64,000 nucleotides of DNA, from positions 1,054,001-1,118,000 of the forward strand of contig JAGI01000002.1 in NCBI GenBank assembly GCA_000526575.1, read 5' to 3'. Below the pieces are notes generated by a model, which was given only the letters and a program-made list of their open reading frames with translations, was not told the origin of the DNA and made no database searches. Made by a program: the position numbers and the translations under genes. Position 1 is the first letter of the stretch. Each line of letters starts with the position of its first letter. Shown here piece by piece: positions 4,793-11,363 of this stretch. The stretch comes from Clostridium sp. 12(A) (lineage in GTDB: Bacteria > Bacillota > Clostridia > Lachnospirales > Lachnospiraceae).

Positions 4793-4912
4793 TTATTTGG
4801 TAACCGAACTCCCCTGCTCATGCAGGGGTTTTTCATTTGTATAAATCCGTGCTCCCAAAATAAGACTAACTAAGACCAGTGCATTTCCCAGTAAAATATC
4901 AAGTAAACCCAT
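4793..4912 (-). CDS. 39-residue single-TM membrane peptide, unknown
   Basis: ATG at 4912 with AGAGGTG upstream; reads MGLLDILLGNALVLVSLI, then a short polar tail ending GSSVTK. One hydrophobic helix (residues about 3-20) and an RIYTNEK basic/polar edge make it a likely membrane peptide. It is the last of four co-directional genes starting at 6278, 43 bases after the third. The coding end runs through the terminator hairpin at 4811-4833. Could be a signalling, toxin-like or membrane-anchor peptide; no function is claimed. The ribosome site and the frame suggest it is real. Confidence 0.55.
   Translation of the reverse strand: MGLLDILLGNALVLVSLILGARIYTNEKPLHEQGSSVTK
4811..4833. terminator. Bidirectional terminator between XRE gene and the four-gene operon
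   Basis: CCCCTGC-TCAT-GCAGGGG followed by TTTTT on the plus strand; stops the XRE transcript, and the hairpin also lies at the end of the convergent operon. Confidence 0.85.
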
Positions 4913-4955
4913 AATACACCTCTTATTCTTTCTGTCAATCTTCCTTTTTGTTAGT

Positions 4956-5150
4956 TCAGACAAACGTCCGGTCTGACGTATTGGTGCCCGACGGCTTCAA
5001 CAGGTTGATGCTCCCGGTTACACAGCCCAAGTCAGGTACTGCTCCCAGTATACGCCCATATAATTCATCCGTGTCACCTCTGGAAAGCATCCCGCAAAAG
5101 TAACCGTATAAATCCTGAAAGTTTTGCTTTTTTTCTATTTTTCTATCCAT
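4956..5150 (-). CDS. 64-residue protein of unknown function
   Basis: The open frame extends upstream, but the ATG at 5150 has AGGAGG five bases before it and is the clear start (MDRKIEKKQNFQDLYGYF). The N-terminal half is a polar helix with a QNFQDLYGYFCGML segment. The C-terminal half is Gly/Ser/Thr-rich and ends NTSDRTFV, with a single Cys in DLGCVTG. No leader peptide motif or membrane segment. Third gene of the operon under the Agr-type operator at 6364-6393. Family not recognised; could be a small secreted or partner protein. Confidence 0.6.
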   Translation of the reverse strand: MDRKIEKKQNFQDLYGYFCGMLSRGDTDELYGRILGAVPDLGCVTGSINLLKPSGTNTSDRTFV

Positions 5151-5194
5151 ACAGCCTCCTGTGTATAGCATAAAAATAAGTCTCCTATTATAGG

Positions 5195-5785
5195 CTAACC
5201 GATTTCCATTTTCTTCTTGTCTCCATAAAGCACTACGCTTTTCCGAATAAGCGATAAGCAATTGGACCATGAGTTCCGTTTTTCAAAGGGGCAGTTAAAC
5301 ATAATCATAAGTAATCTCTCCCCAGCCGGGTATACGGTAAGAACATTATAGATGTTTTCATTTAGAGCACTGCTTATAAATTCCATCCATGCGCTGGGCG
5401 TCTCTTCTTTTGGTTCTGAGCCGGTATCCAGACATACACTCATTGGCTGGAACCGTTTTAAAACCCGATAAAATTCATGTATAACAGCTTCCAGCTGATC
5501 TTCCTTTACACTTTTATCTATCATGTTAAAGCAAAGATTAACGGATCCATCTTCATTAGTCTTAATAACTTCAGGCCGCTGTTCTGAAAAGTACTTTTTT
5601 TTGGCCATCTCCGGTGTCATATCCCGGAATGCACTGGGAATAGAAACTCCCAGCTCATTATTAAATAACATGGTCTCCTGAAACTGAATCAGCTCACCGT
5701 TCACATAGATCCCTGTTTCAATACTGGTAAAGCGGTTGATCCATTCAAGATGCCTGTCAGCCAGTACCTTTTCATCATCTAACAT
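5195..5785 (-). CDS. 196-residue protein of unknown function, possibly Mog1/PsbP/DcrB-like
   Basis: Good ribosome site (GGAGG, eight bases before ATG 5785). No signal peptide or membrane segment. The order of strands and motifs (IYVNGELIQFQETMLF, then GVSIPSAFRDMTPEMAKKKYF, a central long helix around residues 95-115, and a strand-rich C-terminal half ending in a KKKMEIG tail) reminds me of the Mog1/PsbP/DcrB fold, which includes secretion chaperones (DUF1795). That is a fold-level guess only. Second gene of the putative Agr-controlled operon; 22 bases after the first gene and 44 before the third. Confidence 0.65.
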   Translation of the reverse strand: MLDDEKVLADRHLEWINRFTSIETGIYVNGELIQFQETMLFNNELGVSIPSAFRDMTPEMAKKKYFSEQRPEVIKTNEDGSVNLCFNMIDKSVKEDQLEAVIHEFYRVLKRFQPMSVCLDTGSEPKEETPSAWMEFISSALNENIYNVLTVYPAGERLLMIMFNCPFEKRNSWSNCLSLIRKSVVLYGDKKKMEIG

Positions 5786-5807
5786 ATTTTTATCCTCCGT
5801 AAAGATT

Positions 5808-6278
5808 CTATCCCTCTTCCTTCAGCAGCTTCTTCTTTGTCTCCGTCTCACTTCTGGTTTCTGAGAAGATATCTAATTCTGATCTTTTTGCACAAATACC
5901 ATGTTCTTCTGCAGCAACGGAAGATTTAATCGTATTAAGAAAAAGTAGAATAAGCATTTCTATATTCAGCAATAGTTTTTTTACCATGTTACCTGATTTA
6001 TTTTTCTTTTGGTCCGTATTATAGGTAAACCGGGGTATGAGAACCAGATTTTCCTGTAAAATCTTGCACTTCACGTTCCTGGTATCCTGTGCAGCCAGGC
6101 TGTATAACATGTTCTGACTTTTTCGTATATAATAATATCGATTCCAAAAATAAAGATCCCCATAGTGAATATCTGTATCCAGCTGATACCGTTTTATTTT
6201 TTCTGTTCCATCATCTCTTCGAACATAACAGCTAGCTCTATATTGATAATAGCTTTCGTTTACCCTTTTTGTGCTCAC
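5808..6278 (-). CDS. 156-residue protein of unknown function with one hydrophobic helix
   Basis: Starts at GTG (6276-6278); AAAGGA lies ten bases upstream. Residues 1-95 are rich in Tyr, Arg and Lys (NESYYQYRASCYVRRDDG, YFWNRYYYIRKSQ) and look like a small mixed alpha/beta domain. Residues about 97-122 are hydrophobic (VKKLLLNIEMLILLFLNTI), and the tail is highly charged. It is the first gene behind the promoter and direct-repeat operator at 6328-6393. Family not recognised. A membrane-associated component is possible. Confidence 0.6.
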   Translation of the reverse strand: MSTKRVNESYYQYRASCYVRRDDGTEKIKRYQLDTDIHYGDLYFWNRYYYIRKSQNMLYSLAAQDTRNVKCKILQENLVLIPRFTYNTDQKKNKSGNMVKKLLLNIEMLILLFLNTIKSSVAAEEHGICAKRSELDIFSETRSETETKKKLLKEEG

Positions 6279-6327
6279 CTTCTAGTCATCCTTTCATTCC
6301 CCCGCTCTCTTTCTCATACATAATTAC

Positions 6328-6355
6328 ATTCTACATCTGGAGATTTTTTTTTCAA
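6328..6355 (-). promoter_or_regulatory. Promoter of the four-gene unknown operon
   Basis: TTGAAA (6350-6355), 16-base spacer, TAGAAT (6328-6333), about 50 bases before the GTG of the first gene. The -35 lies eight bases from the proximal operator repeat, as in the agrD promoter. Confidence 0.7.
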
Positions 6356-6363
6356 CACTAGTG

Positions 6364-6393
6364 CCAAAATTATACGCTTTCAGTTCCGAAATT
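6364..6393 (-). promoter_or_regulatory. Candidate AgrA (LytTR) operator upstream of the unknown operon
   Basis: Direct repeats AATTTCGG (6386-6393) and AATTTTGG (6364-6371), start-to-start 22 bases, immediately upstream of the -35. Paired direct repeats two helical turns apart are the known binding pattern of LytTR response regulators. The site matches the one before agrD in sequence, period and distance to the -35. Confidence 0.72.
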
Positions 6394-6530: not shown

Positions 6531-7112
6531 TCAATCACAAGCTTTTTTATTTTTAAACACCCCATAAACCAACATAAGAGACAAGATGACATGACTGATA
6601 GCAATCACAACGCCAGCTCTTAATCCAAAATACCAAAATGCTGCTCCGATAACAGCTTCAATTAACCATACTAATCTGCTTTTTTTTCGATAATATACTA
6701 TTTCAACTTCGTCCAAAGGCTTATTTATATCGGGGACAGGAGCATATTTGTATATTAATAATCCTGAAACCACAAAACACATTGGTACTATTATCGCGGC
6801 CAACTCCCCAGTCAACCCTTTTTCAACAAAACAGACAAGTAAGATTAAAATAGTAGAAACGATAGTACATACCCCATTTGTCCTGGCATGATAACCGCCG
6901 CAATATGACCTTAATGGAATATAACTGATAAGAAATACAGCTACCTGCATAGGTACCTTGAATGCAACGGCAACCAAAATAGCTATCATTATATTGACCG
7001 ACAGATTCAGCATTACTTCATAAGCATACTGATATAAAGAACTCTGTTCATTGGTTAAAATACTTCTACTAACCTGCCAACTAACAATACTTTCTGACAT
7101 TCTCTTAATCAT
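6531..7112 (-). CDS. agrB: AgrB-like autoinducer prepeptide endopeptidase
   Basis: Membrane cysteine protease that cuts the AgrD C-terminal tail and forms the thiolactone ring. 193 residues, usual length, with four to six membrane segments. The signature RSYCGGYHARTNGVC is present, with R68, H75 and C82 at the same seven-residue spacing as the essential R70/H77/C84 of staphylococcal AgrB (known from that family). The ATG overlaps the agrD stop (TAATG), so the two are translationally coupled. Terminated at 6476-6507. Confidence 0.93.
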   Translation of the reverse strand: MIKRMSESIVSWQVSRSILTNEQSSLYQYAYEVMLNLSVNIMIAILVAVAFKVPMQVAVFLISYIPLRSYCGGYHARTNGVCTIVSTILILLVCFVEKGLTGELAAIIVPMCFVVSGLLIYKYAPVPDINKPLDEVEIVYYRKKSRLVWLIEAVIGAAFWYFGLRAGVVIAISHVILSLMLVYGVFKNKKACD

Positions 7113-7273
7113 TAGAATTTCCTAAACATTTTTGCTTCATCTGGTACTTTAGGCTGATGGTGAGCAAACATACAAGTAACATTAAATGAATATAAAGCTA
7201 CAGCAAATGCAAAATAATTCATAACTTTAACTGGGGCAAACTTTCCTCTTACATTATTCATCAGCTTTTTCAT
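7112..7273 (-). CDS. agrD: AgrD-like cyclic autoinducer precursor peptide
   Basis: 53 residues, ATG at 7273 with AAAGGAG upstream. It has the three AgrD parts: a basic amphipathic N-terminal helix (MKKLMNNVRGKFAPVKVMNY and a hydrophobic stretch), the pheromone core, and an acidic/charged tail with HQPKVPDEAKMF. The tail aligns with DEPEVPKEL of Staphylococcus aureus AgrD, which places the cut after H38 and predicts a five-residue thiolactone ring C34-M-F-A-H38 with an exocyclic tail ending in T33. The tail length cannot be read. Stop overlaps the agrB start. Confidence 0.93.
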   Translation of the reverse strand: MKKLMNNVRGKFAPVKVMNYFAFAVALYSFNVTCMFAHHQPKVPDEAKMFRKF

Positions 7274-7299
7274 AACACAAACACTCCTTTTTTTCTTTG

Positions 7300-7328
7300 A
7301 TAATATACTATGAAAGTATTAATTTCAA
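7300..7328 (-). promoter_or_regulatory. Promoter of agrDB
   Basis: TTGAAA (7323-7328), 17-base spacer, TATTAT (7300-7305), 27 bases before agrD. It lies after the agrC stop, so agrDB can be transcribed apart from agrAC. Confidence 0.75.
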
Positions 7329-7336
7329 GTGATGTG

Positions 7337-7366
7337 CCAAAATTATACATGTTAGATTCCAAAATT
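7337..7366 (-). promoter_or_regulatory. Candidate AgrA (LytTR) operator upstream of agrD
   Basis: Two perfect AATTTTGG direct repeats (7359-7366 and 7337-7344), 22-base period, eight bases from the -35. Would give positive autoregulation of the pheromone, as in other Agr systems. The agrAC promoter region (9471-9548) shows no such pair. Confidence 0.75.
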
Positions 7367-7375
7367 TGCCAAATA

Positions 7376-8692
7376 CTAACTAAAGCATGATATAGTAAGT
7401 GTTGTTATAAACTTATTTTCTCTTTCTTCCAGGTTCAAAGAGCCTCCATATTTTTCTGCAAGCGAATTAACTATACCAATTCCTAATCCATGATGCTTTG
7501 GATCTGATTTTGTGGATAGTAGTCGATTCCCTTCTTTTAAAGCCATTATGGAATAACTGTTTTCTATATGTAGAACAAGAAAATAATTGGTACCCATGAA
7601 TAGCTTTACATCTACTAAACGATTTCCTTTATTACACTTTTCAGCAGCTTCGATCGCATTATCAATCAGGTTACCCATCATAGATATTAAATCTGCATCT
7701 GAAATAAAATCTATTTTAAGAAATTTCTCCACAAAAATTGATAACTCAACACTAACCTCTTTTGCTTTAATTACTCTTTCAGATAATATAGCATTTAATA
7801 CTGGGTTCCCATTATATATTACTATTTCAGTTTCTTTTTTAATGTTTCCCTTTAACTCATCAATAATGTTAATTATCTTTTCGTTATCTCCATTTAAAGC
7901 AAGCAATCTAAAACTGTTAAAATATGAATTAATGTCGTGCATATAACATTGATATCGTTCATTAATCTTTAAGATTTTCTGAAAGTGCTCATTCTCCATA
8001 TCTTGTTTAACTAAGGACAATTCAGCTATTTTAACTTTATTTAACACATCTTTGTACTTTTCAAGAACAATATAAATTGCAGCATTTGTAAAGAATAAAA
8101 GGAACGCACCAACACACATAAATATTTGCATGTACCGCTCTTTAGGAAAATCTAAATATATAAAGTTCACTGATATAATCAATGAAAATATTGGAACAAT
8201 AAGTAAATACCAAGCAAAACTATCATTATCACTTATTTCAAGTTTTCTTGTATACTTTTCTATATAAACCAGAAACATAAAACCAACGAAATATTCCACT
8301 AAAAGAAAATAGATACCTCCAGAAGTAAACCAAGGCGGCACATAAAAAGGTAGAATGTTCGTTAATAAACGATATAATATTTCAAAGGACACTTCTTTTC
8401 CGCAAGCAAAAATGGCATAAAATATAATCGTATATGCTACTGCATTCGTTAAAGATACCCTAAACATAAGTATTACATAAACGTAATAGATTATGGGTAC
8501 TGTCATTAAATTTAACCAGCTAAGACCAAGGCTATTTTCCAGAAACATCAATATAGTAAAAGTTATAGTCAAAACAATTGTAACTTTTGAAGTCCGCTTC
8601 TTTTTAAACATAGTACTAAAAAAGCGATATAACATATAAATATCAGCCGCACAGAAAAACAGTCTGCTAGCTGAAAACAAATCATTCTCCAT
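7376..8692 (-). CDS. agrC: AgrC-like sensor histidine kinase (GHKL type)
   Basis: Membrane receptor for the cyclic peptide. 438 residues: six or seven membrane segments in residues 1-210, a linker coil, the phosphoacceptor region ERYQCYMHDINSYF with H252, and a GHKL ATPase domain with the N box GNLIDNAIEAAEKC (N345) and G box KHHGLGIGIVNSLAEKYGG near residue 400. This is the HPK10-type architecture of AgrC and related kinases. Its ATG lies inside the end of agrA (11-base overlap), so agrA and agrC are coupled. Confidence 0.93.
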   Translation of the reverse strand: MENDLFSASRLFFCAADIYMLYRFFSTMFKKKRTSKVTIVLTITFTILMFLENSLGLSWLNLMTVPIIYYVYVILMFRVSLTNAVAYTIIFYAIFACGKEVSFEILYRLLTNILPFYVPPWFTSGGIYFLLVEYFVGFMFLVYIEKYTRKLEISDNDSFAWYLLIVPIFSLIISVNFIYLDFPKERYMQIFMCVGAFLLFFTNAAIYIVLEKYKDVLNKVKIAELSLVKQDMENEHFQKILKINERYQCYMHDINSYFNSFRLLALNGDNEKIINIIDELKGNIKKETEIVIYNGNPVLNAILSERVIKAKEVSVELSIFVEKFLKIDFISDADLISMMGNLIDNAIEAAEKCNKGNRLVDVKLFMGTNYFLVLHIENSYSIMALKEGNRLLSTKSDPKHHGLGIGIVNSLAEKYGGSLNLEERENKFITTLTISCFS

Positions 8693-9470
8693 TATATACG
8701 CCTTCCCTGTATTTTGATAGCATAAAGTCTTCTTTCAGCTTATTGAATTCCTGAGTTTTACTTCTAGCTATCTGAAATGTGTTGTCTATATCTTTTAACT
8801 TTAAAATTTTACTGGTACAGTAAACCAAATACTTCAAATTGACGATATAACTGTCATGAGGATAACCAAAACCATGATCTTTTAATATTTCATAGATCTT
8901 TTCTAATTTCTCCGGAATACGGATATCAGGTGTCTCACCCTTTTCATTGGGTTTTATACCATAGATACGATACGAACTTTCAGAAATATGTACTCTTGTA
9001 TTCTTCTTATATTTTTCAATGTACACAATATCATCTGCTCTTAAAAACAGCCTTTCCCTGTTCATATTCGCCGTAAGGAAAGGGGCCTGACCAAATTCAA
9101 TCATTTTGTCCAGAGCGTCCTTGATATACCGATCCATAATCTTCTCAGTCATATTTTTCATGATATAACGATATGGCTGTACTTCAAAGCTCCGTGGAGA
9201 TGGTTCTACGAAACCAGTGTAAAAGACAAGGATTACATTGTTATCCAGTTCTCTGATACGGATTGCAGTTTCCTCACCATCGATTCCTTTCATCTGAACA
9301 TCAAGGAATATGATGGAAAACCGGATGCCTTTTATGGCCTCCAAAAGCAACAGGCCACTGTCATATTCATGAATGCGAATCTTCTCCGCCTCCGGGATGT
9401 TTTTATCAATCCTCTCAGATAACCGTTGACGATCCTGCGCATTGTCATCACATATAGCAATTTCAAACAT
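8682..9470 (-). CDS. agrA: AgrA-like LytTR response regulator
   Basis: 262 residues: receiver domain with acidic pocket D8/D9 and phosphoacceptor D57 (IIFLDVQMKG), switch region VLVFYTGF, then a LytTR DNA-binding domain (residues about 145-250; LRADDIVYIEKYKKNTRVHI). LytTR proteins bind paired direct repeats and activate promoters. The open frame runs further upstream, but MFEIAICDDN is the canonical receiver start and AAGGGGAAG precedes it. Likely acts at the repeats at 7337-7366 and 6364-6393. Confidence 0.92.
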   Translation of the reverse strand: MFEIAICDDNAQDRQRLSERIDKNIPEAEKIRIHEYDSGLLLLEAIKGIRFSIIFLDVQMKGIDGEETAIRIRELDNNVILVFYTGFVEPSPRSFEVQPYRYIMKNMTEKIMDRYIKDALDKMIEFGQAPFLTANMNRERLFLRADDIVYIEKYKKNTRVHISESSYRIYGIKPNEKGETPDIRIPEKLEKIYEILKDHGFGYPHDSYIVNLKYLVYCTSKILKLKDIDNTFQIARSKTQEFNKLKEDFMLSKYREGVYNGE

Positions 9471-9548
9471 ATTTCTTCCCCTTTGTAAAAACATTTTATT
9501 TAATCTATCGGGAAAAATTTCCCTATTCATAAGAATAATATAAGAAAA

Positions 9549-9587
9549 GACGCCAAAAAGCAACATCATTACCCGCTTTTTGGCATC
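9549..9587 (-). terminator. Terminator of the ABC exporter operon
   Basis: GATGCCAAAAAGC and GCTTTTTGGCGTC around a 13-base loop, then TTTTCTT, 27 bases after the exporter stop. Confidence 0.85.
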
Positions 9588-9614
9588 TTTTCATTTTTTA
9601 TTACCTATTCTTTG

Positions 9615-11363
9615 TTATGACACAGCGAATTGGCTGTTGTAAAGCTGGGCATAAAAACCATTTTGAGATAGCAGGTCTTCATGGGTTCCCTGTTCAATGA
9701 TATGACCATCCTTCATGACTAAAATCACATCCGCTTCCCTGATGGTAGATAAACGGTGGGCAACGATAAAGCTGGTTCTTCCCTCCATCATTTTTGCAAA
9801 TGCCTTCTGAATCTTTATCTCAGTTCTTGTATCAATGGAGGAGGTCGCTTCATCAAGAATAAGCATAGGCGGAAGGCACAGCATGACCCTGGCAATGCAT
9901 AAAAGCTGCTTTTGTCCCTGAGATAAATTTCCACCATCTTCAGAGATCACAGTATCATATCCATTGGGCATACGCTCGATAAAACTGTGGGAATGAGCTT
10001 CCTTGGATGCCAGTATAATCTCTTCATCAGAGGCATCCGGTTTTCCATATGCAATATTTTCCCGAATAGTTCCTGATTTCAGCCAGGTTTCCTGAAGTAC
10101 CATGCCGTAGTTTGACCTCAGGCTTTCTCTGGTCAGGTGTCTGATATCCGTACCATCCACCTGAATGGAACCGGAATCTACATCGTAAAAACGCATGAGC
10201 AGATTAATAACGGTACTTTTACCACAGCCGGTAGGTCCTACAATGGCTACTCTCTGTCCTGGTTTCACCAGGAGATTCATATCCTGGATCAGAGTAACCT
10301 TAGGATTGTAAGAGAAATCAACGTGATTAAGATGTATCTCGCCAGTTGCATTGATAAGAACTTTTGCTTCCGGATCATCCGGCACCTGTGGTTTTTCATC
10401 AATCAGCTCAAATACTCTGGCTGCAGATGCCAGTGCATTCTGAAGCTCCGTGATAACTCCCGATATTTCATTGAATGGCTTTGTGTACTGATTGGCATAG
10501 TTTAAAAAGCTGGTCAGCTGTCCAACCGTCAAAAGACCGTTAATGGCGGCAAATGCACCGGATATTCCTACGCAGGCATAAACAAGACTGTTTACAAATC
10601 GAGTGGATGGATTGGTAATAGACGAGAAAAAGGTGGCTTTTAATCCCCATACCCGAAGTTCTTCATTAATGCTCTCAAACTTCTCCTGGGCTTCTTTTTC
10701 ATGTCCAAAGGCCTGAACTACCTTTTGATTTCCCATCATCTCCTCAACAAGAGAGGTAAGCTCCCCCCTGGTCCTTGACTGCATTTGAAACAGATGATAT
10801 GTTTTCTTGGCGATGAAGCTGGCCACGAATAGGGATACAGGAGTGACTAAAACTACAACTGCAGCAATGACAGGATTGATGTAGAACATAAAAATCAGCG
10901 TTCCAATTATGGTAAGGACACCGGTAAATAGCTGGGTAAATCCCATCAGCAGACCATCTGAGAACTGATCAATGTCCGCAATAATTCTGCTGATAATATC
11001 CCCATGAGAATGGGAATCTATATATTTGAGAGGTAGTATCTCCAGCTTATTAAATGCCTGAGTTCTAATGTCTTTGACAACCCGGTAAGTGATCCAGTTA
11101 TTGATATGGCTCATTAACCACTGGGCAATTGCGGTTAAGAGTATTACAATTCCCATCTGTTTAAGAATTACCCACATACCTTGAAAATCTACATCTCCAG
11201 CTCCAACAATACAGTCGATGGCACGACCGATAAGAATCGGAATGTAAAGAGTCAATAATACGGTAAGCAGGGCACAGAATAAAGAAGCTATGACGCCCCA
11301 TTTATACCGGCTGATGCAATCCAGCACACGTTTTATGGTAGAACCATGTTTTTTAATTCCCAT
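9615..11363 (-). CDS. ABC exporter half-transporter, second subunit
   Basis: 582 residues: six-helix ABC_membrane domain (about 20-320) fused to an ATPase with Walker A GPTGCGKST, Q-loop LQETW, signature LSQGQ, Walker B MLILDEATSSID and H-loop VAHRLST. All catalytic motifs are canonical. The open frame extends upstream, but GGAGG before the ATG at 11363 and the one-base gap to the previous stop fix the start. With its partner it forms a heterodimeric LmrCD/BmrCD-type drug or peptide exporter; the substrate cannot be inferred. Confidence 0.93.
   Translation of the reverse strand: MGIKKHGSTIKRVLDCISRYKWGVIASLFCALLTVLLTLYIPILIGRAIDCIVGAGDVDFQGMWVILKQMGIVILLTAIAQWLMSHINNWITYRVVKDIRTQAFNKLEILPLKYIDSHSHGDIISRIIADIDQFSDGLLMGFTQLFTGVLTIIGTLIFMFYINPVIAAVVVLVTPVSLFVASFIAKKTYHLFQMQSRTRGELTSLVEEMMGNQKVVQAFGHEKEAQEKFESINEELRVWGLKATFFSSITNPSTRFVNSLVYACVGISGAFAAINGLLTVGQLTSFLNYANQYTKPFNEISGVITELQNALASAARVFELIDEKPQVPDDPEAKVLINATGEIHLNHVDFSYNPKVTLIQDMNLLVKPGQRVAIVGPTGCGKSTVINLLMRFYDVDSGSIQVDGTDIRHLTRESLRSNYGMVLQETWLKSGTIRENIAYGKPDASDEEIILASKEAHSHSFIERMPNGYDTVISEDGGNLSQGQKQLLCIARVMLCLPPMLILDEATSSIDTRTEIKIQKAFAKMMEGRTSFIVAHRLSTIREADVILVMKDGHIIEQGTHEDLLSQNGFYAQLYNSQFAVS

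Follow-up and report, generated by a model that had tools for sequence, protein, structure and literature searches.

What does the agr locus of Clostridium sp. 12(A) switch on beside itself, and what does that output serve? The locus lies in a window of 64,000 nucleotides (nt) of contig JAGI01000002.1, where a complete Agr set (AgrB, AgrD, a GHKL sensor kinase of the AgrC type and a LytTR response regulator of the AgrA type) forms one cluster, followed on the same strand by a short row of open reading frames (ORF1 to ORF4; Table 1). A first-pass annotation had described this row as a dedicated output operon of Agr whose proteins could not be placed in any family. Our analysis suggests that ORF1, ORF2 and ORF3 probably form an Agr-switched accessory module of a Gram-positive injection system with Hcp-like, VgrG-like and PAAR-like parts.

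At the sequence level, the agrD promoter and the promoter of the output operon have paired LytTR-type boxes in common. On the minus strand, the boxes upstream of ORF1 read AATTTCGG-N14-AATTTTGG (6393-6364), and the 8 nt CACTAGTG separate them from the TTGAAA element (6355-6350), which is followed after a 16-nt spacer by TAGAAT (6333-6328). The boxes upstream of agrD read AATTTTGG-N14-AATTTTGG (7366-7337); here the 8 nt CACATCAC lead to a TTGAAA that starts at 7328, and after a spacer of 17 nt comes a TATTAT that ends at 7300. The exact pattern matched twice in the window and not once in 100 dinucleotide shuffles. Across the whole 4.6-Mb genome it matched the same two sites only, and the reversed pattern gave no match, so the common design that the first-pass annotation had seen in these two promoters holds, as the only pair of exact sites in the genome.

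This geometry is conserved. At the 14 homologous loci (the window and L033-L045), boxes with at most two mismatches stand both before agrD and before ORF1 in every case, and a TTG begins exactly 8 bases past each of the 28 boxes. The fixed distance that had been proposed is thus a constant feature; the CAC proposed together with it varies across species. Upstream, all 14 loci have agrD, agrB and agrC, the last complete or in part; on the opposite flank, an XRE-type gene runs towards the operon. L037 and L040 have an insertion of unrelated genes that separates agrB from ORF1, and the contig end falls inside agrC at L036 and L037.

We then scanned 25 genus genomes for the boxes, allowing up to two mismatches and using the reversed pattern as control. 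The scan gave 131 matches in 18 of the genomes, versus nine for the reversed pattern; 15 of the 131 lie outside the examined loci and two fail a stricter rule, leaving 114 sites (96 distinct segments) for analysis. TTGA occupies the −35 position at 96 of the 114, and a same-strand ORF start follows 30-400 nt past the box at 110. Boxes were found in all 17 genomes that have an orthologue of the window agr locus, which was recognized by an AgrA at least 74% identical in 15 of them, by a 77% AgrA piece in G005 and by AgrB and AgrC at a contig end in G019. Seven of the eight genomes without such an orthologue are boxless; the eighth, G011, has boxes and is 67% complete. The association of box and agr locus has a Fisher p of 1.7e-5, a value uncorrected for shared ancestry. 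These patterns suggest that the ORF1 operon is under Agr control.

A second, divergent agr lineage, found in genomes G014 and G006, has the same layout. Its AgrA (31%), AgrC (31%), AgrD (40%) and AgrB (39%) show low identity to the window proteins. On one strand, agrACDB is followed by an ORF1 homologue of 89 amino acids (aa), which is 38% identical over residues 1-84 (E 4e-15 in a search of five loci), and then by genes for a vWA-type protein (610 aa), a 727-aa protein, two Hcp-like proteins and DnaJ-like, 184-aa and FHA-like proteins, with two further genes after the DnaJ-like one in G006; protein types were assigned by similarity to scanned relatives. The promoters of agrD and of the ORF1 homologue carry boxes of a second type, ACCAAATTTGG...ACCAAATTCGG and ACCAAATTCGG...ACCAGATTCAG, whose period is 21 nt; the distance to the following TTGATT or TTGTAT is eight bases here too. 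Because the promoters of agrD and of the ORF1-machine operon carry matched boxes in this lineage too, the same circuit design appears in two agr lineages with two different boxes. Nine genomes were searched for the second-type box with up to three mismatches. In G014 and G006 it occurs three times each, before agrD, before the ORF1-machine operon and before the gene of a DUF4280 effector (which in G006 also has a phage-lysozyme match, slightly below the cut-off); six others have no site. With boxes at every homologous locus, their tracking with agr and this recurrence, the earlier reading of a LytTR/Agr-type output operon next to its own agr locus is upheld at the level of sequence.

What the operon encodes is indicated best by ORF2, which by its sequence is a member of a family found in VgrG/PAAR/Rhs-toxin islands. 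In a search of 61 genomes, near-full-length orthologues (at least 60% identity) were present in 13 of 24 genus genomes, its own included, and all 13 adjoin agr; in G001, ORF2 is a 51-residue fragment. The ORF2-bearing loci in named genomes (n=12) belong to Lacrimispora (six), [Clostridium] aerotolerans, Clostridium sp. (two) and metagenome bins (three). More distant relatives (19-33% identity) were examined with their surroundings at 20 places; every one of these islands has a VgrG-like cluster member, and many also have DUF4280 (PAAR-like), Rhs or Imm11-like proteins. The profile of the ORF2 orthologues matches that of the island paralogues with an hhalign probability of 99.9. Six sister loci (L036, L038-L042) have the gene of a 358-aa VgrG-like protein inside the operon, between ORF2 and ORF3, and on the Paenibacillus polymyxa plasmid p-YT9A (L252:11134-20292) an ORF2 homologue adjoins genes for a 'phage baseplate assembly protein V', DUF4280 and a GH-E nuclease. 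The statement that the proteins fit no family is superseded by the island family of ORF2, the VgrG-like gene in the six sister operons and the ORF1 homologue at the head of a machine operon in two relatives. The Mog1/DcrB (DUF1795) label that had been proposed for ORF2 is unsupported by sequence, with no match in Pfam, NCBIfam, PHROGs or PDB sequences. Proteins of 206-220 aa (cluster k58), once labelled DcrB-like, have no BLAST similarity to ORF2 and are VgrG neighbours only.

It could be argued, in line with the first-pass annotation, that the ORF1 operon is an Agr output and encodes an independent secreted or membrane effector without a role in the machine; ORF2 would then have been recruited from the island family. 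In the window, the operon has no machine core gene next to it and lacks the VgrG-like gene, and neither ORF1 nor ORF3 gave an hhalign match to known island genes. We regard this explanation as quite unlikely, since the VgrG-like gene lies inside the operon at the sister loci, the ORF1 homologue of G014 and G006 heads the machine operon, and the box is common to the machine and some of its cargo. That the operon is competition-related, which had been offered as one possibility, appears probable.

The putative machine is encoded elsewhere in the same genome, where a row resembling a type VI secretion system (T6SS) or contractile injection system lies behind a one-mismatch box (G000:C2:1857290-1892292; L176, L175, L095). 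It starts with an AgrA-like LytTR regulator and an AgrC-like kinase and continues on one strand with a vWA protein, a 722-aa protein, two Hcp-like proteins, a 184-aa protein, an FHA-like protein (just under the cut-off), a PP2C, a TPR protein, four proteins without a Pfam match (824, 429, 231 and 258 aa) and a 220-aa protein, ending in two VgrG-like proteins, a pentapeptide-repeat protein, Imm11 and a DUF4280-Ntox44 protein. Strand and spacing suggest that the row is one operon. About 4 kb past it, a 2431-aa protein has Phage_GPD, Rhs and Tox-SHH matches. Of the two VgrG-like proteins, one matches Phage_GPD (46.5 bits) and the other Phage_base_V (26.7 bits), both over the cut-off; TIGR01646 matches of relatives are below it. 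The PAAR-like tip matches DUF4280 with E=4e-21.

The 722-727-aa core protein has no Pfam or credible PDB match; matches of its profile to viral NS1 in the PDB (E 0.004 and 0.011, over 37-43 residues) were judged to be chance. No core protein was found in plasmids or phages. The core protein is present in 21 of the 25 genus genomes and, in a sample of the order, in 25 of 387 genomes and 12 of 170 genera (E at most 0.001; a few matches are partial or weak). Twenty upstream regions from other genera were examined, several of them cut by contig ends. In five of these (four genomes, three genera), agr-type genes lie directly upstream of the vWA and core genes, with AgrB recognized in four.

The genes behind the 114 boxes show how far the circuit may extend. 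They are agrDB at 15 sites, the ORF1 operon at 14, a machine-type row (vWA, 722-aa or Hcp-like genes) at 13, a VgrG-type cargo island at 10 (L126 counted by its c4-family gene only) and a LytTR regulator, with other genes or the end of the contig behind it, at seven. Genes for pectate lyases and for GH9, GH48 and GH10 enzymes are boxed as well, and the regulon therefore extends beyond the machine. The word 'dedicated' used in the first-pass annotation was too narrow, because the box also stands before the machine, its cargo and many other operons.

Several observations weigh against an Agr-switched module of this machine. Genes without a visible machine link follow 55 of the 114 boxes, the G001 cellulases included. 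Other, more distant AgrA-like and AgrB-like proteins occur in all 25 genus genomes, so that the absence of agr can here only mean the absence of an orthologue of the window locus. At L041, agrB and agrC are in pieces. Only four of the 20 islands with distant ORF2 relatives have a box, none is present in L046, the second island of this kind in the own genome, and no agr gene lies in any of the 20 in the stretches examined. Two of these islands, L054 and L056, are continuations of the machine rows that begin at agr in G006 and G014. Whether homologues accompany agr, as the first-pass annotation had asked, hence has two answers: close ORF2 orthologues (13 of 13) and ORF1, in the searches made, are found only beside agr, whereas the distant ORF2 relatives are not. 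The parts of the machine itself are in some cases weakly matched: the two tandem Hcp-like genes have a TssD match below the cut-off (E 0.003-0.025) and no PDB match, and no VipB (TssC) match over the cut-off, such as a sheath would give, was obtained in the own genome. The only VipB match there, a sub-threshold one elsewhere, was rejected. Finally, G015 has two second-type boxes (L253, L256) without an obvious gene behind them on the same strand, and the matches listed for this genome include no close AgrA, whether of the first or the second type.

A further point concerns which protein reads the box. The 240-aa LytTR regulator of the machine row, alone or together with AgrA, could bind it, with Agr feeding in indirectly. 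This regulator is the first gene past the box in many genomes, and a homologue of at least 57% identity is present in all 18 box genomes, including the 67% complete G011, in which no AgrA orthologue was detected; because it tracks the boxes this closely, it is a live rival to AgrA. Across the genus, 22 of 25 genomes have it (E at most 1e-40). On the other hand, homologues of 49-52% identity persist in four of the seven boxless genomes (G002, G006, G009, G014; it is missing from the other three), the agrD promoter itself is boxed at all 14 loci, and the divergent AgrA is accompanied by a divergent box. We consider this alternative unlikely, and AgrA remains the preferred reader of the boxes.

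The gene row itself was also examined. ORF1, ORF2 and ORF3 look to be under selection, with dN/dS values of 0.09-0.19, 0.03-0.17 and 0.06-0.22, respectively, in the 14 of 18 pairs for which dS was computable (several dS values exceed 1). A match to ORF1 in G083 was rejected, having six stops in frame and ribosomal-protein neighbours. All four frames that had been assigned to the operon exist, of which only these three are conserved. ORF4 is doubtful as a gene: the terminator hairpin of the facing XRE gene (stem 4811-4828) falls within it, and it is kept in the same species (L187); beyond that, a similar start is seen only in L045 and the closest relative, L033, where both the length and the end differ. 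In L045 (G001, 8574-9729), the ORF2 fragment is followed by a 92-aa ORF of which only the first 19 residues resemble ORF4 (47%).

The truncated look of ORF4, the ORF2 fragment of G001 and the absence of machine genes between ORF1 and ORF2, compared with G014 and G006, would also fit a decaying remnant, left behind after the machine operon had moved away from agr. With dN/dS of ORF1 to ORF3 below 0.23 in all 14 computed pairs and the promoter boxes kept at all 14 loci, such decay is extremely improbable. Another option is that ORF1 to ORF3 are regulators of the Agr or machine circuit, acting in feedback or anti-activation, rather than injection parts. They are small, one has a hydrophobic stretch, and they lie behind the same box as agrDB; the ORF2 family, however, resides in VgrG/PAAR islands that have no agr alongside, and we find a regulatory role very unlikely.

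For the preferred reading, the Agr-switched accessory module, the following sequence of events can be proposed. At high cell density, the AgrD peptide would activate AgrC, and AgrA would bind the paired boxes just upstream of the −35 element and turn on agrDB together with the operon (6278-4956). The three conserved genes of the operon would provide an accessory module of a phage-tail-like toxin injection system with Hcp-like proteins, VgrG-like spikes, DUF4280/PAAR tips and Rhs and PAAR-toxin effectors, through which secretion and killing may take place; its large operon and further cargo islands, which carry the same box elsewhere, would be drawn into the response. ORF2 would most likely serve as an adaptor or chaperone that aids spike or effector loading, ORF1 may be an accessory protein, either cytosolic or membrane-bound, and ORF3 is a candidate accessory protein as well.

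Table 1. Features of the agr locus and its output operon in the window (positions counted from the first letter of the window).
Feature	Position	Strand	Remarks
ORF4, 39 aa, doubtful	4793..4912	minus	overlaps terminator of the facing gene
ORF3, 64 aa	4956..5150	minus	conserved small protein
ORF2, 196 aa	5195..5785	minus	VgrG/PAAR/Rhs-island family; likely spike/effector adaptor (role predicted)
ORF1, 156 aa, GTG start	5808..6278	minus	conserved N-terminal part of ~90 aa, one hydrophobic stretch, short tail
ORF1-operon promoter, TTGAAA-16-TAGAAT	6328..6355	minus	starts 8 nt past the second box
Paired LytTR-type boxes upstream of ORF1	6364..6393	minus	22-nt period; kept at 14 of 14 homologous loci
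AgrB	6531..7112	minus	PF04647, E=1e-36
AgrD	7112..7273	minus	TIGR04223, E=1e-7; predicted peptide core around Cys34 (C-M-F-A)
agrD promoter, TTGAAA-17-TATTAT	7300..7328	minus	
Paired LytTR-type boxes upstream of agrD	7337..7366	minus	
AgrC-type GHKL sensor kinase	7376..8692	minus	PF14501, E=3e-22
AgrA-type response regulator with LytTR domain	8682..9470	minus	PF00072 and PF04397

The signalling genes vary between relatives. Comparing the window (6531-8692) with the near-identical relative L033 (5549-7705), AgrA (95%), ORF1 (96%) and ORF2 (98%) are kept and AgrB (66%), AgrD (51%) and AgrC (63%) are divergent, a pattern that would fit an exchange of the peptide specificity group. Among the AgrD cores are C-M-F-A, C-F-Y-F, C-A-W-A and C-F-W-A, along with others.

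Some of the boxed genes deserve mention in their own right. In G001, Agr-type boxes lie upstream of GH9 and GH48 cellulases and a GH10 enzyme (L138, L139), which suggests that plant-polymer enzymes of this genome may be under density control. In the own genome, a one-mismatch box (L096:2501-3665) is followed by genes for two proteins, one of 220 aa whose start is signal-like and one of 62 aa. Imperfect boxes precede members of a family of 246-251 aa at nine loci (L103, L107, L113, L133, L159, L161, L165, L168, L172), in most of which MerR-type and UbiD-type genes come next; the L168 member, the only one scanned, has no Pfam match. At L102, L112, L124, L126 and L157, boxes stand upstream of small DUF3592-like membrane proteins (one scanned, under the cut-off), and a similar protein is present in the VgrG island L048; the boxed ones are possibly orphan immunity genes.

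The locus has counterparts among known systems. It resembles the agr P2/P3 arrangement of Staphylococcus aureus, with AgrB, AgrD, AgrC (GHKL) and AgrA (LytTR) in both. In S. aureus the output is RNAIII, and the repeat sequence differs from the boxes described here; the neighbouring output in Clostridium sp. 12(A), in contrast, is a protein-coding operon that appears to belong to the injection-machine family. Binding of AgrA to two direct repeats is described in PMC4227749.

As for the machine, the T6SS and orphan VgrG/adaptor modules offer a likeness in the Hcp-like, VgrG-like and PAAR-like proteins, the Rhs effectors, the FHA-like and PP2C proteins and the adaptor-like proteins beside vgrG. 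The machine differs in its Gram-positive host and in that no TssC/VipB match over the cut-off exists in the genome, and no TssJLM or ClpV turned up among the scanned machine proteins, no search having been aimed at them. It looks as if the machine works like a T6SS, to judge from its predicted proteins; we do not class it as one, because no sequence match points to a sheath and the Hcp-like proteins fall short of the curated cut-off. With extracellular contractile injection systems (eCIS) and the Photorhabdus virulence cassette (PVC) it has the VgrG-like spike in common. The PVC markers given in PMC3482391 are a metallopeptidase and a CDC48-type ATPase; neither is named among the scanned machine proteins, and no specific search for them was made. 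The same paper lists firmicutes among the T6SS carriers and has MOG1/PspB-like partners in its table. A Gram-positive phage-like translocation system has been suspected from PAAR_H2/DUF4280 next to Phage_GPD in two reports (PMC8651086; PMC5349215, 2016), and VgrG-like (Phage_GPD, Phage_base_V) and DUF4280 proteins in Firmicutes, here with toxin domains, correspond to it. PMC8651086 states that T6SS or eCIS genes were not found around DUF4280/Phage_GPD; the genomes analysed here, by comparison, have a conserved row (vWA, 722-727-aa, two Hcp-like, FHA-like, PP2C and DnaJ-like proteins) with a quorum-sensing regulator attached.

In the literature covered, which excluded preprints and took in few subscription papers, we found neither the machine nor an Agr control of it described. 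Agr is best known as a controller of secreted virulence factors. It seems to us an evenly balanced matter whether peptide (Agr) quorum sensing recurrently controls an undescribed Gram-positive Hcp/VgrG/PAAR machine, with the window operon as its Agr-locked spike- and effector-loading module. If it does, the machine would be armed only at high density, since the operon would be Agr-locked, and its arming might further be confined to cells that share a peptide type. Agr would then also control a toxin-injection weapon, and adding a synthetic peptide would offer a direct way to induce this weapon and make it visible. Through this locus, a candidate core gene row and a possible switching signal come into view in species related to named Lacrimispora strains, by which a suspected but undescribed Gram-positive weapon becomes testable.

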